The notes below the pieces were generated by a model. It was not told the DNA's origin. It was given only the letters and a program-made list of their open reading frames with translations, and ran no database searches. The translations under genes and the position numbers were made by a program. From positions 2,790,001 to 2,854,000 of the forward strand of contig CP036201.1 of NCBI GenBank assembly GCA_004299845.1: a stretch of DNA of 64,000 nt. The letters run 5' to 3'. This stretch comes from Verrucomicrobia bacterium S94. GTDB lineage: Bacteria; Verrucomicrobiota; Kiritimatiellia; Kiritimatiellales; Pontiellaceae. Shown one piece after another: positions 6,825 to 40,968 of the stretch; position 1 is the stretch's first letter, and every line of letters begins with the position of its first letter.

Positions 6825-8237
6825 TCACTCGCCGAAAACCTCTCCTTCAAATACCTCAAATCTGCAATCCGTTTTCCAGGCATTCGAAGGCAGTCCGGCC
6901 TTTACGGAAAGATGACTCAGTGTGGTCACCAGATCCCACCCCTGCTCCGGGGCAACCTGCGGCAGAAATACCGCAGCATGCAACCCGCGGTTCAAAACAA
7001 TCCCGTGGCGGCCGATCTCGATATCCTCCCAGGAATCCACCGGTTCCGGCGGGGTAAGCACCGTAATTTCAAGATCAATCTCCGCCAGCTCATCTTCCCG
7101 GATTTTCGGGAACCGCGGATCATGAAATGCGGCATTCACGGCCTGCTCCTTCACCGCATCAACCAGTGGCCGGCGCGGAAAAATTTCGCCGATGCACCCG
7201 CGCAGCTGCCCCTGTTTATGCAGCGTGACGAAAACACCGCGCTTTTCCTGCATGGCCGGAGTCGGGTTCATTTCAAATGGCGGAATATCCGGCCTCAGCT
7301 GTCTCGAAATGGTATGTCGCGCAAAAGCCAGCAATGTGATCTTATCCCTTGCAGAAAGCCCTGAATCCGCCTGTGCCGCATCGGTCTTCCACTGTCCGGA
7401 AACAGCAGCGGACAGATAACTCACACAATGCGACCAGTCGCCGGTCAGATTCCCCGATGTGTCATACGTCAACAGACGGATTACCGCATGGTCCGGAAGC
7501 ATGGCCAGCAGCACGGCGATCGGACTGCTGCCGCAGATGGTGGCCCCGGTTTCCCGAATATACTGCTGAAAGCCCTGCAGATCGTGCGCCTGCATTTTTG
7601 CAAATGCGCCCAGATCCAGCTCCCGCAGATTTTTCTCGATGTCATCCGTAAAAGGCACATAGCCGAAATCCCGGCCGTAGTGAGTAAAATCGGAGCTGAT
7701 CACCAGCAGCGTCTCGTCATTCATCAAGGGCCGCAATTCCGCGGCAATTCGCTTTGCAGCGGTATCGGAAAGCTGACCGCAGACCACCGGAATCAATGAA
7801 AAACCGTCCAGTACCCGCTGCAGCAGCGGCAGTTCAATCTGTACACTGTGCTCATTTTGGTGCGCATAAGGATGCGCCGTGAAGGCTTCATTTTTCCAGA
7901 GTCCGGAAATCGCCTCCCGATCCAGCGGAATCAGCCCCAGCGGCGTTTTTATATGGGCCGCATCCGGAATACTGACCGTATCCTGCAGGGCAACCCGATG
8001 CGACGGCCCCAGAATAATCACGCGCTTAAACCGGCGGCCTCTGAGCAGTTTCACGCCCTGTGCGGCCACCTTCCCGGAATAGCGGTAGCCGGCATGCGGA
8101 AGCAGCAGCGCCATCAGATGTTCCACCGGTTCAGGATTCACGGCATCAAGACAGCGGTCAATCTCCCGGGCAAGCAGCTCCGGATCATCCGCATACCACC
8201 GACCCGCCAGACCGGATTCAAGGACTGTTGTTTTCAT
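6825..8237 (-). CDS. Memo-AMMECR1 fusion (AmmeMemoRadiSam proteins B and A)
   Basis: A 470-residue fusion of two domains usually encoded separately. Residues about 1-275 are Memo-like (AmmeMemoRadiSam B): LLPHAGYRYSG, ILGPSHR, HQNEHSVQIELPLLQ, LVISSDFTHYG and TICGSSPI carry the conserved His and Cys residues. From about 290 an AMMECR1 domain (system A) follows: GVFVTLHKQGQLRGCIG, then NAAFHDPRFPKI and DLEITVLTPPEPV. A GGAGG lies six bases before ATG 8237. The third usual partner, a radical SAM enzyme, is not in this window. The function of the system is not established; a radical-based modification is generally assumed. Confidence 0.88.
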   Translation of the reverse strand: MKTTVLESGLAGRWYADDPELLAREIDRCLDAVNPEPVEHLMALLLPHAGYRYSGKVAAQGVKLLRGRRFKRVIILGPSHRVALQDTVSIPDAAHIKTPLGLIPLDREAISGLWKNEAFTAHPYAHQNEHSVQIELPLLQRVLDGFSLIPVVCGQLSDTAAKRIAAELRPLMNDETLLVISSDFTHYGRDFGYVPFTDDIEKNLRELDLGAFAKMQAHDLQGFQQYIRETGATICGSSPIAVLLAMLPDHAVIRLLTYDTSGNLTGDWSHCVSYLSAAVSGQWKTDAAQADSGLSARDKITLLAFARHTISRQLRPDIPPFEMNPTPAMQEKRGVFVTLHKQGQLRGCIGEIFPRRPLVDAVKEQAVNAAFHDPRFPKIREDELAEIDLEITVLTPPEPVDSWEDIEIGRHGIVLNRGLHAAVFLPQVAPEQGWDLVTTLSHLSVKAGLPSNAWKTDCRFEVFEGEVFGE

Positions 8238-10108: not shown

Positions 10109-10140
10109 TCGCCCCGGCTTTTAGTACCTGTTGGTGACTA

Positions 10141-10292
10141 ACACCAAACGTTAAAACTATCCGGTATAAATTTGATCCCTCGCAGAGGCACTGAGGACGC
10201 AGAGAAATTCAGTCATAAACGGCTCCGCGCTCTCTGCGCCTCTGCGCGGAATAACGCTGTCGTTAAGACCGGAATGTTTTAGTAAATGGTAT
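10141..10292. mobile_element. MITE-like palindromic element, copy 1
   Basis: This 152-bp element runs from ACACCAAACGTTAAAAC to GTTTTAGTAAATGGTAT. Its ends are imperfect inverted repeats of about 30 bp; the reverse complement of the right end reads ATACCATTTACTAAAAC and then ATTCCGGT, matching the left end at most positions. The interior also folds back on itself (CGCAGAGGCACTGAGGACGC against GCGCCTCTGCGCGG). It encodes no protein. Near-identical copies lie at 24387 and 33771, with a divergent one at 40818. It sits between two paralogous lipoprotein genes. Confidence 0.8.
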
Positions 10293-10312
10293 AAGTGAAC
10301 AGGAAGGCTTCG

Positions 10313-24386: not shown

Positions 24387-24539
24387 ATACCAAACGTTAA
24401 AACGATCCGGTATAAATTTGATCCCTCGCAGAGACGCTGAGGACGCAGAGAAATTCAGTCATAAAGGTTGAGTTATGACACAGTTGCTCTGCGCGGAATA
24501 ACGCGGTCGTTAAGACCGGAATGTTTTAGTAAATGGTAT
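24387..24539. mobile_element. MITE-like palindromic element, copy 2
   Basis: A 153-bp copy of the element, starting ATACCAAACGTTAAAACGAT and ending GTTTTAGTAAATGGTAT. The centre differs from copies 1 and 3 (GGTTGAGTTATGACACAGTT). Its right end supplies the first base of the TGA stop of the adjacent minus-strand gene, so it probably truncated that gene. Confidence 0.8.
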
Positions 24540-24787
24540 CAGATCTTCGCTACGGATTTTCCGCTCGACGTATTCAACAACTCAAGCTTCAGCAACCCAA
24601 CATAATTGCCCGGTTCAATCAAGCCCCGAGCCTTCGTATTCGCAATACAGCTTGGCCGGATCATCCCCGGCTTCTCCTTCAGCGCATAATCCTCGGATAG
24701 CACCTCATATTCGTACCGGCCATTCTCTTCGAGCACATCGACCCGGTCGCCCGTGCACGCCCCGTTCCTGCTTTTTCTTAGAACCAT
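24539..24787 (-). pseudogene. Truncated gene of the helicase operon (possible DUF2357-like fragment)
   Basis: An 82-residue reading frame that begins 17 bases after the helicase stop and ends exactly at the edge of a MITE-like element, whose last T forms the TGA. The peptide (YEYEVLSEDYALKEKPGMIR, then NTKARGLIEPGNYVGLLKLE, ending SVAKI) looks like the start of a larger protein. It faintly recalls DUF2357 (McrC-like restriction partner) proteins, a weak match made from memory. If so, it is the remnant of a fourth component of this operon. Confidence 0.5.
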
Positions 24788-33563: not shown

Positions 33564-33639
<76 letters not shown>

Positions 33640-33644
33640 TTTTA

Positions 33645-33675
33645 AAACCCTCATAATGAACGATTATGAGGGTTT
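33645..33675 (+). terminator. tRNA-Lys terminator
   Basis: AAACCCTCATAAT and ATTATGAGGGTTT form a 13-bp stem around a five-base loop, with TCTTTC after it. It is repeated identically at 33992-34022 in the duplicated unit. Confidence 0.75.
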
Positions 33676-33757
33676 CTTTCTGCTCACACTTCATCTACGG
33701 AAAAATCTCCGCCTCAACCGTGCAGTTTCGGGCGGTGTAGCGATCGCTTACCCGAAG

Positions 33758-33986
<229 letters not shown>

Positions 33987-33991
33987 TTTTA

Positions 33992-34022
33992 AAACCCTCA
34001 TAATGAACGATTATGAGGGTTT
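33992..34022 (+). terminator. Duplicated tRNA-Lys terminator
   Basis: Identical to the hairpin at 33645-33675, carried along in the tandem duplication. It follows the interrupted tRNA-Lys copy. Confidence 0.7.
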
Positions 34023-34159
34023 CTTTCTGCTCACACTTCATCTACGGAAAAATCTCCGCCTCAACCGTGCAGTTTCGGGCGGTGTAGCGATCGCTTACCC
34101 GAAGGGAAGCGATGGGCATCTGAGCCGGAAATGAAAGCCCATGCTTCGACGCATTTGAA

Positions 34160-37317: not shown

Positions 37318-40300
37318 ATGCACGTACCTTTTACACAGAAAATTCTTAAAGACTGGGCCGGAGAGGCCACCTTCCGCAAAGGCATGACCCTTTTTGAAAA
37401 AGGCAAAGTCGACAGCATTGAATACGATCATCCCTTCGTCAGCGGCCAGCTCGCCATAGGCATACGCGGCATGCGCAGCAGGTTCGAAGTGCTGAAAGAC
37501 GGTTTTGTGGAAAACCACTGCCCCTGCCGCGACAACCGCGAGGAGGGCAAAATATGCGCGCATCTCGTCGCTCTCGGCCTGGAGGCCATCCGCCTCTATT
37601 CCGATCCGCACCGCGTCGACAAAATGGAAGAGGAAAAACGCCGCGCTGAACGGCTGGCCTCGTTCGACGACTCGGCATATCACACCCGCGACCCCAACGG
37701 CACCCCGGCCGAGCTCCGCATCATCCTGAAACAGAGCTGGCGCGAATATCTGGCGGAGCAGAAAGTACCGATGCGCTGCGCCGTCGAAATCAGAGACAAG
37801 GTGATTCCGCTCAACGAAGTCCCGAAAAAGCATCCCCTCGCCTTGAGCAAAGCCGACGACAACCTCCTCTTTGTTATCGAGGATATCTGCGAAGGCCCCG
37901 CCAAAGCGAAATTTGACGCCACCCTCTCCGATTTCATCAATATCCTTGAGCTGTGTGACGGCAAACCGATTTACGAAGGTGGTGTTGAAGGCTATCTGAT
38001 GACCGGCGACGGCTCCGTTTCCACCTCCCTGAAAATGGCCCTCGACGAACTCAGCGGCGAACTCGTCCTGAATATTTGCACCACAGAGCACACAGAGAAT
38101 CACGGAGAAATGTCCTCCGCACACTCTGCGTCCTCCGGTGAAACGGGTACATTTATTGTGAGTGGCGGCAGTGGCTGGATATTGAAAGACGATGTTTTCC
38201 AGCGGCTGGAAAAGGTGCTGCCCGGCCCGATGCGCGCCATCTATGACGGCGAAGTCCGCATTCCGCGCGAAGCTGTTCCGGGATTCATGAAAAACGAACT
38301 GCCCGCACTAAGCAGCATGATCGAAATCGAAAGCAGCATCACTCCCGACATGCTTTCGCTCGCTCCGGCCAAACCCCGTTTCCGGCTGGTGATTGACGGA
38401 CAGGAACATACGCTTTCGGCCACGCTCTATGCGGAATACAACGGCGTCCGGCTTGTTGCCGGGAAAGAGGATGCCAAAGGCCATTTTTCCATTCCGTCCT
38501 CCGACGACCTGCTTGGTTTCGAAGTCCGCAATCCCGAGGCCGAGGAAAAGGCGCTGGAAACGGTCACTGCACTGGGATTCCGCGGCAGACGTGGCGATAT
38601 GCTGATGCAGATTCGCGGCAGCCGCGAAGTCCTCAATTTTCTCGGCGGCGCCCTGCCCCAGCTCAAGCGAAAGGGCTGGCGCATTGATCTCGAAGGGGAA
38701 ATCGCTGCCTTCATGGACGACATCGAATCAACCGTGCCGGTGGTGCATATCAGCAACTCCTCCGGCAACGGTTTTTTTGAAGTCGGGTATAATTTTGAAA
38801 CCGACGGCGGCGTGAGCCTCGATGAAGCCGAAATCCAGCGTGCCATCAATATGGGCGAAGCGTTTGTTAGAAAAAAAGGCCGTACGGTACTGCTCGATAT
38901 TGACGCTATTGAAACCGCGCGCGACGTCTTCTCTGACTGTGCAGTGGGCTCCGGCGATCAGCCCGGCACCTTTAAAATGAACGATATTCATGCCGCATAC
39001 GTGCAGTCGTCGCTGCTTTCGCTCGACGGCATCGACATCGAAAGCACACCGGAATGGATGAGTAAGGCCGAGGCGCAGAACCGCGATACCAAAGTGGAAC
39101 CGGTCGCGCTCGGTCCGAAGCTTGAAAATACGCTGCGCGATTATCAGAAAGAGGGCGTCTACTGGCTGCGTTTTCTGGAACGTTCCGGTTTTGCCGGTAT
39201 TCTGGCTGATGAAATGGGGCTGGGTAAAACACTGCAGACACTGACCTGGCTGTCGCTTGAACGGGAAAATGAAAAGGCCCGCAATCACCCCGCCCTGATC
39301 ATCTGCCCCACCAGTCTGGTCGACAACTGGGCGGATGAAGCGGAAAAGTTCGTTCCCCATATGCGGGTTCAGAAAATGCACGGTCCGGATCGGCACACTT
39401 ATTTCCCGACCCTTGAAAACCGGGATCTGATTATCACCTCCTATGCCCTGATCCGCCGCGATCTCGACGAATATCTGAAACATACCTTTGCCGTCGTTGT
39501 GCTCGACGAAGCGCAGCATATTAAAAACCGGACCACGCAGAACGCCACCGCAGTGAAAAAAGTGGCGGCACATCATAAGCTGGTACTGACCGGCACACCG
39601 ATTGAAAACAGCGTGACCGATCTATGGTCCATTATGGATTTTCTAATGCCGGGCTATCTCGGCAGCCACAAAGCCTTCCGCGAAAACTATGAACTGCCCA
39701 TCCAGAACGGCGGACCCGATGCCGAACTGGCGCAGATCCGCCTGCGCCGGAAACTGCACCCCTTCCTCCTGCGCCGCCTGAAAAAAGATGTCGCCAAAGA
39801 TCTGCCGGATAAAATTCAGCGCGTGGCCCACTGCACCCTCAGCGGCGACCAGGCGAAAGTCTATAAACAGCTGGCCGAAAGTGCGAAAAAGGAAATCACC
39901 GGTCTGGTCGATGCGCAGGGCTTCAATAAATCGCGGATGCAGATTCTCAAAATTCTGTTGCAGCTCCGTCAGACCTGCTGCCACCTCGACCTGCTGAAAC
40001 TGCCGGGCATTTCCAGCGAATTCCCCTCCGCCAAACTGGAACTCTTTTTTGAACTGGTCAACGAAGCCATGGATGCCGGACACCGTATTCTCGTGTTCAG
40101 TCAGTTTACCTCCATGCTCTCCATCATCCGCGAAGAGCTGAAAACCCGGGCGCTGAAATACTGCTATCTCGACGGATCCACCAAAGACCGGCAGGACCGG
40201 GTGAAACAGTTTAATTCCGATAAATCGATCCCCCTCTTCCTGATCAGTCTGAAAGCCGGCGGCAGCGGACTCAACCTTACCGGTGCTGATATGGTCATCC

Positions 40301-40536
40301 ACTTCGACCCGTGGTGGAACCCGGCGGTGGAAGACCAGGCCACCGACCGCGCACACCGGATCGGCCAGAAAAACACTGTCTACTCCATCAAACTCATCAC
40401 CAAAGGAACGGTGGAGGAAAAAGTCCTGCAGATGCAGCAGAAGAAAAAGAGCGTCATCGATGCCACACTCGAAAAAGATGCCGATATGGCCCAGGCGCTC
40501 ACCTGGAACGACGTCCAGGAACTACTGTCCGTATAG
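37318..40536 (+). CDS. SWIM zinc-finger SNF2 family helicase
   Basis: A 1072-residue DNA-dependent ATPase. A SWIM zinc finger (CPC at 68-70, C80-x-H82) lies near the N-terminus. The SNF2 motor occupies the last 480 residues: ILADEMGLGKTLQTL, VVLDEAQHIKN, LVLTGTPIENSVTDLWSI, then helicase C LLQLRQTCCHLDL, RILVFSQFTSML, ISLKAGGSGLNLTGADMVIH and DRAHRIGQKN. Such proteins remodel protein-DNA complexes. Residues about 252-277 are an extra segment (CTTEHTENHGEMSSAHSASS) encoded by a palindromic CACAGAG repeat. No ribosome-binding site is clear. Confidence 0.92.
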   Translation: MHVPFTQKILKDWAGEATFRKGMTLFEKGKVDSIEYDHPFVSGQLAIGIRGMRSRFEVLKDGFVENHCPCRDNREEGKICAHLVALGLEAIRLYSDPHRVDKMEEEKRRAERLASFDDSAYHTRDPNGTPAELRIILKQSWREYLAEQKVPMRCAVEIRDKVIPLNEVPKKHPLALSKADDNLLFVIEDICEGPAKAKFDATLSDFINILELCDGKPIYEGGVEGYLMTGDGSVSTSLKMALDELSGELVLNICTTEHTENHGEMSSAHSASSGETGTFIVSGGSGWILKDDVFQRLEKVLPGPMRAIYDGEVRIPREAVPGFMKNELPALSSMIEIESSITPDMLSLAPAKPRFRLVIDGQEHTLSATLYAEYNGVRLVAGKEDAKGHFSIPSSDDLLGFEVRNPEAEEKALETVTALGFRGRRGDMLMQIRGSREVLNFLGGALPQLKRKGWRIDLEGEIAAFMDDIESTVPVVHISNSSGNGFFEVGYNFETDGGVSLDEAEIQRAINMGEAFVRKKGRTVLLDIDAIETARDVFSDCAVGSGDQPGTFKMNDIHAAYVQSSLLSLDGIDIESTPEWMSKAEAQNRDTKVEPVALGPKLENTLRDYQKEGVYWLRFLERSGFAGILADEMGLGKTLQTLTWLSLERENEKARNHPALIICPTSLVDNWADEAEKFVPHMRVQKMHGPDRHTYFPTLENRDLIITSYALIRRDLDEYLKHTFAVVVLDEAQHIKNRTTQNATAVKKVAAHHKLVLTGTPIENSVTDLWSIMDFLMPGYLGSHKAFRENYELPIQNGGPDAELAQIRLRRKLHPFLLRRLKKDVAKDLPDKIQRVAHCTLSGDQAKVYKQLAESAKKEITGLVDAQGFNKSRMQILKILLQLRQTCCHLDLLKLPGISSEFPSAKLELFFELVNEAMDAGHRILVFSQFTSMLSIIREELKTRALKYCYLDGSTKDRQDRVKQFNSDKSIPLFLISLKAGGSGLNLTGADMVIHFDPWWNPAVEDQATDRAHRIGQKNTVYSIKLITKGTVEEKVLQMQQKKKSVIDATLEKDADMAQALTWNDVQELLSV
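38074..38148. repeat. Palindromic CACAGAG repeat inside the SNF2 gene
   Basis: The gene contains TTGCACCACAGAGCACACAG, then CACGGAG, a short spacer, and CTCCGCACACTCTGCGTCCT to CGGTGAAAC. These are imperfect inverted halves of the same repeat type found at 938-1011. The insertion keeps the reading frame and adds about 25 residues in a region between two recognisable parts of the helicase. Confidence 0.6.
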
Positions 40537-40691: not shown

Positions 40692-40768
40692 CGGAGTGTA
40701 GCGCAGTCTGGTAGCGCGGTTGCTTTGGGAGCAATAGGTCGGGGGTTCGAATCCCTCCACTCCGACCA
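40692..40768 (+). tRNA. tRNA-Pro (TGG)
   Basis: Acceptor CGGAGTG pairs with CACTCCG before A and an encoded CCA. The anticodon arm is TTGCT TTGGGAG AGCAA-type with anticodon TGG, and the T-arm reads GGGGG TTCGAAT CCCTC. Length 77, all arms present. A strong terminator follows. Confidence 0.95.
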
Positions 40769-40817: not shown

Positions 40818-40968
40818 ATACCCTGTTTGATTACTTCTCGGTATAAACCTCGTAGTCCAGAATCACCAAAGTTTCACCCCGAAGGATACAGAGGAACACA
40901 AAGGAAGGATTCTGTCCTCCAGCGGAGCGGGTGGTAAAAATATACCAGGATGTTTTAGCAAGTGGTAT
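40818..40968. mobile_element. Divergent MITE-like element, copy 4
   Basis: The 151-bp segment starts ATACCCTGTTTGATTACTTC and CGGTATAAAC, and ends CAGGATGTTTTAGCAAGTGGTAT-type, matching copies 1-3 at both ends (ATACC, CGGTATAAA; ATGTTTTAG, GTGGTAT) and in length. The interior is different: a TTTCACC...GGGTGGTAAAA palindrome of the CACAGAG type, linking the two repeat families. It lies 13 bases past the hsdR stop. Confidence 0.6.

Follow-up and report, generated by a model that had tools for sequence, protein, structure and literature searches.

In-frame copies of a dispersed palindromic repeat in a SNF2 helicase gene and other genes of Pontiella-related bacteria

Palindromic repeats lying in frame within genes are said to have first been seen as something peculiar to Rickettsia, and isolated cases among REPs followed. 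In a review citing Ogata 2000 and 2002 (PMC10969869), Rickettsia palindromic elements (RPEs) are presented as mobile palindromic repeats found in frame in many unrelated genes, where they add tens of tolerated residues. Intragenic REPs have already been described in Opitutus terrae, another Verrucomicrobiota genome, and Di Nocera and colleagues report one case comparable to the loops treated below, the recB gene of two Xanthomonas, in which REPs lie at about the same site; CGTC REPs, like the family described here, are without a known transposase (PMC3733652).

Here we describe a dispersed repeat family, referred to by its CACAGAG motif, one copy of which lies in frame inside a SNF2 helicase gene. 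Intragenic palindromes as such are already known; the family itself appears to be new. The literature searched gave nothing relevant on the CACAGAG repeat or on repeats of Pontiella, and Rfam returned no match at the repeat. The likeness to RPEs drawn in the preliminary description holds for the apparent mode of action, with in-frame insertion into diverse genes (eight in all, each with an intact ORF) of a hydrophilic segment that seems to be tolerated. It does not extend to the host, which belongs to another phylum, nor to structure: RPEs measure ~150 bp against ~72 nt for the CACAGAG element, whose ends consist of a 3' GCGNAGC mini-hairpin plus GGTGGTAA. By analogy, the element would work as RPEs and intragenic REPs do, and we claim membership in neither group. 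With the GTAG/CGTC REPs it shares the character of a short dispersed stem-loop within ORFs of PVC bacteria. Assignment to that group was nevertheless rejected on both tag and length: at the 3' end of 118 copies, GTAG was found once, CTAC twice and CGTC/GACG never, the 5' region of the same copies gave scattered hits in at most 13, and units of ~65-80 nt are about twice as long as the 20-40 bp stem-loops of those REPs. The CACAGAG element further differs from them in carrying a side mini-hairpin and in a same-loop pattern that covers three genes and several repeat families.

The window, a stretch of 64,000 nucleotides, covers positions 2790001-2854000 of the single 4.1 Mb contig of a genome labelled G000, whose closest named relatives are Pontiella (Kiritimatiellota). 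Its features are listed in Table 1 together with the copies in other genes. The preliminary description had placed a palindromic repeat in frame inside the helicase at 38074-38148 (ATTTGCACCACAGAGCACACAGAGAATCACGGAGAAATGTCCTCCGCACACTCTGCGTCCTCCGGTGAAACGGGT, translated in frame as ICTTEHTENHGEMSSAHSASSGETG), and this placement is borne out by an exact arm match: ACCACAGAGNNCACAGAG occurs exactly at 38080 and with two mismatches at 943 in the window, and the whole genome holds five exact matches and 22 with at most two mismatches, against none for the reversed control pattern. The similar repeat it had noted in non-coding DNA at 938-1011 is equally real, with boundaries at 939-1009, and is better preserved. 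Its estimate of about 25 added residues is right for the element, since 38077-38148 codes for 24 residues, but slightly exceeds the net gain, which, measured against empty orthologues, is 16 residues (48 nt) in G000 and 17-25 elsewhere.

Table 1. Positions and supporting evidence of the helicase gene, its insert and the other copies discussed in the text.
Feature	Position	Strand	Genome	Basis
SNF2 helicase gene, 1072 aa, host of insert	37318..40536	+	G000	ORF; Pfam SNF2-rel_dom, Helicase_C, SNF2_assoc
Decayed copy of the palindromic repeat, read in frame as residues 254-277 (C254-G277), CTTEHTENHGEMSSAHSASSGETG	38077..38148	+	G000	Orthologue comparison
5' arm consensus ACCACAGAGCACACAGAG	38080..38097	+	G000	Exact match
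Better preserved intergenic copy, TTTCACCACAGAG...CTCTAGCGCAGCAGGTGGTAA, 3' motif AGCGCAGCAGGTGGTAA	939..1009	+	G000	Fold z -3.30
Third copy, ends AGCGGAGCGGGTGGTAAAAA	~40870..40945	+	G000	Located through its 3' end
Copy in NifK/N-like nitrogenase gene	2784082 in G000 (~6 kb before window)		G000 and G027	Frame-blind survey
Copy in tRNA-modification radical-SAM MnmL/YtqA			G015	Frame-blind survey
Copy in CusA/CzcA-type pump			G014	Frame-blind survey
Copy in BioH-like hydrolase			G014	Frame-blind survey
Copy in methylase			G008	ORF alone; name read from sequence
Copy in protein without assigned family			G006	ORF alone
Copy in VWA-domain protein			G005	Later, frame-biased peptide search; name read from sequence

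We consider it very likely that the segment derives from a mobile hairpin repeat, non-coding and dispersed, of which one copy was inserted in frame into a loop of the helicase and tolerated there. That a naturally variable, low-complexity loop should merely resemble the repeat by chance is hardly credible: the length of this loop does vary across the order, yet the 16-base arm match is exact where the genome-wide control yields none, a better preserved copy occupies the same place in the G027 helicase, and the same repeat is found in other genes, for which clean empty sites exist. In an AlphaFold model of residues 1-600, the sole stretch of very low confidence (pLDDT < 50) is 258-275, which bridges the predicted beta strands 249-255 and 278-282; predicted disorder is confined to the insert. 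The insert site is a surface loop, a beta hairpin in the part of the protein assigned to the SNF2-associated region. The G000 helicase copy is now only weakly palindromic (fold z -1.06), whereas better kept copies range from -2.06 to -4.9, among them the G027 insert (-2.06), the intergenic copy of Table 1 and the P. sulfatireligans insert (-4.60; peptide KHEGTKDTKLSDLCALSEAGVE).

A typical copy of the family, TTTCACCACAGAGGACACAGAGGAACACAGAGGAA...CTCTGTGTTCTCCGTGTCCTCTAGCGAAGCGGGTGGTAAAA, forms a hairpin of ~65-80 nt with strand-specific ends. Copies normally lie between genes. The family is dispersed: the signature AGCGNAGCGGGTGKTAA occurs in 20 of the 28 genomes of the genus, with 43 copies in G005 and controls near zero, and exact matches elsewhere in the phylum are patchy (19 of 288 genomes). 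The third copy in the window lies downstream of the helicase gene and of a tRNA at 40692-40765, nested within a larger dispersed repeat, GGTATAAACC...AGTGGTATGA; some further copies are also nested inside larger dispersed repeats. The 3' arm carries a conserved side motif, AGC-GNA-GC, in which the GNA loop (N being any base) is present in 108 of 114 elements and the two G-C pairs are kept in 105 of 114; the search pattern had left the loop free, and the copies are mutually related, so that these counts are not independent. This motif agrees with the sequence rule of d(GCGNAGC), two G-C pairs closing a GNA loop, which is an ultra-stable DNA mini-hairpin of known structure (PMC4686876). Pairing of the motif in the cell is predicted from its sequence; its stem is nearly invariant, and covariation therefore cannot prove it. 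In G054, G030 and G179, palindromes of 60-290 bp begin and end with the GCGAAGC motif, which suggests that it forms the terminus of a mobile unit. These both-end motifs recall the terminal inverted repeats of MITEs, as do the palindromic ends of the element, and the family further resembles MITEs in being non-autonomous, dispersed and partly nested. No transposase was found for the family, and its signature was present at none of the 34 Y1-transposase loci examined in the genus, a subset of all such loci.

The alignment of homologues proposed in the preliminary description shows the gain to be lineage-specific. The segment is missing from at least 14 orthologues of the same genus, comprising most Pontiella helicases, and is present in G000 and G027; conservation of the segment in genomes that lack the repeat, which would have spoken against a mobile origin, was not seen. 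In the slice compared, empty orthologues measure 111 bases, against 159 in G000, 162 in G027, 177 in G001, 171 in G015 and 180 in G022. The G027 helicase, 90% identical to that of G000 as a protein, carries the better kept copy TTTACCACGGAGGACACAGAGGAACACAGAGG...CTCCAGCGAAGCGGGTGGTAAG, and the best explanation for this pair is an insertion in an ancestor that the two genomes share. The reading frame is kept in both, which could be taken to mean that the peptide, or a hairpin in the mRNA, has been recruited for a function such as regulation or partner binding, and a hydrophilic, charged peptide could indeed serve as a linker. Such recruitment seems to us very improbable: the insert itself is poorly conserved between the two genomes despite the identity of the whole protein, its hairpin has decayed in G000, the loop is modelled with low confidence, and many unrelated proteins carry the insert.

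The same helicase loop holds a related palindrome with a different inner part in G001, G015 and G022 (in G022, AACACGAAGGCACAAAGGACAC...CTTAGTGATCTTTGTGCCTT) but the same 3' end, AGCGNAGCGGGTGTT. In a helicase tree computed after removal of the insert region, the empty G009 is the sister of G001 (98/97) and the empty G004 that of G015 (100/100). Because the filled G001 and G015 thus pair with empty sisters, at least four insertions at this one loop are the simplest count. A single insertion in an ancestral Pontiella, followed by precise loss in most species and by sequence divergence in the rest, would account for the shared loop and the common 3' end AGCGNAGCGGGTG. We regard it as improbable, since the scattered carriers (G000 with G027; G001; G015; G022) would demand many clean losses, the inner arms (CACAGAG versus CACTAAG) and the 5' phase differ among the inserts, and unrelated repeats occupy one loop in MnmL and in CusA as well. 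As a separate observation, the C-terminus of the helicase (residues 1023-1071) occurs once more, ~75% identical, near the gene in G015, L053 ~7544-7690 corresponding to L030 39-185.

The repeat was also located in coding frames, in seven genes other than the helicase. A frame-blind survey gave 120 signature matches, three of which were chance hits inside genes, and identified internal in-frame copies in seven genes including the helicase; the eighth, encoding a VWA-domain protein, came from the later peptide search (Table 1). Empty sites were judged from within-genus orthologues instead of PDB alignments, in which the similarity of NifK/N begins past the insert and the loop of CusA varies. On this basis, the NifK/N-like site has gained 25 codons in G000 and G027 only (300 versus 225 bases), the MnmL site 25 codons (75 bases) in G015 and the CusA-like site 24 codons in G014 (276 versus 204 bases), all three with clean empty sites, and in the BioH-like hydrolase of G014 ~22 residues are unmatched. 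The methylase fragment of G008 gave no match to NCBIfam models. Several long ORFs over copies, among them those at L146, L233, L156, L236, L243 and L412 (MutY), were rejected as intragenic cases, being antisense or upstream of the true start.

All seven survey genes use one and the same frame of the element, TTEDTEEHRG...SSEAGGK, ending AGC GAA GCG GGT GGT AAA (SEAGGK). Among 118 elements, the three forward frames are open in 88, 55 and 34 copies and the three reverse frames in 60, 29 and 79, so that the frame in use represents 88 of 345 open element frames; seven of seven by chance would have a probability of 0.255^7, or ~7e-5, assuming that the frame is drawn in proportion to openness. A bias of this kind is the pattern expected if the hydrophilic frame alone is tolerated.

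In other species, the loops of the helicase, MnmL and CusA genes appear to have received inserts in independent events, and some of these inserts are different repeats. In G015 the MnmL loop contains the CACAGAG element; in G002 it has a palindrome, GGGGTCAGTCC...GGACTGACCCC, in G007 and G013 a palindrome of GCCGCGAAGGAACGCAGAGAACACAAA type and in G021 ACAGGCTGGAAGCCTGT, the last two being candidate repeat families. Together, G015, G002, G007 and G021 make up a single clade (93/94). The CusA-like loop holds the CACAGAG element in G014 and other repetitive sequence, candidate dispersed repeats, in G031 and G042. A likeness to RAYT/TIRYT repeats concerns the different repeat GGGGTCAGTCC, which in L135, L312 and L316 lies in inverted orientation on the two sides of Y1 (RAYT-type) transposase genes of the genus; because of this placement, at least one of the loop-filling families is plausibly RAYT-mobilised. 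The CACAGAG family itself lay at none of the Y1 loci examined. What stands out most in these results is that different repeats have reused loops in three genes. It might be imagined that certain loops are exchange sites, at which, after a first palindrome, later families preferentially insert into it or replace it by hairpin-targeted turnover; we hold this to be rather unlikely, but if true, mobile non-coding repeats would swap protein segments wholesale. In the C-terminal linker of the G015 MnmL (L223), we also observed tandem LETGNLK repeats, another type of repetitive intragenic insert.

The helicase segment is best read as selfish DNA that the protein tolerates in the form of a disordered linker. 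A hairpin repeat of ~65-80 nt would insert into the helicase loop with a length and phase that leave the gene open, possibly via a single-stranded hairpin step, at which the conserved 3' mini-hairpin hints. The repeat would bring the protein no benefit, and selection would purge gene-breaking copies, leaving as survivors those that present the hydrophilic frame in permissive loops, where the hairpin would decay after insertion while the frame persists. In these free-living anaerobes, nature has run the experiment a second time, in a genus with many sequenced species where filled sites can be set against clean empty ones and where core enzymes are among the hosts. Independent filling by several families makes it possible to ask which loops tolerate sudden insertions of 20-25 residues, and in which frame, along a natural route from mobile non-coding DNA to new protein sequence, and the conserved GNA mini-hairpin is a concrete starting point for asking how the repeat may be mobilised.

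Other repeats were observed in the same genome. A dispersed repeat of ~160 bp, ATACCAAACGTTAAAAC...AATGGTATAAG, with an internal CGCAGAG palindrome, has near-identical copies in the window at 10138-10296, 24387-24542 and 33768-33926. One of them is flanked by identical 188-base direct repeats (33577-33764 and 33924-34111), which overlap a tRNA at 33564-33636, and this duplication may have arisen together with the insertion of the 160 bp repeat. At 2946008 and 2948601 of G000 (L016 and L018), 2.6 kb apart, near-identical CACAGAG-like stretches (ACCACAGAACACACTGAGGCACAGAG) are found, possibly within repeat-rich coding sequence.
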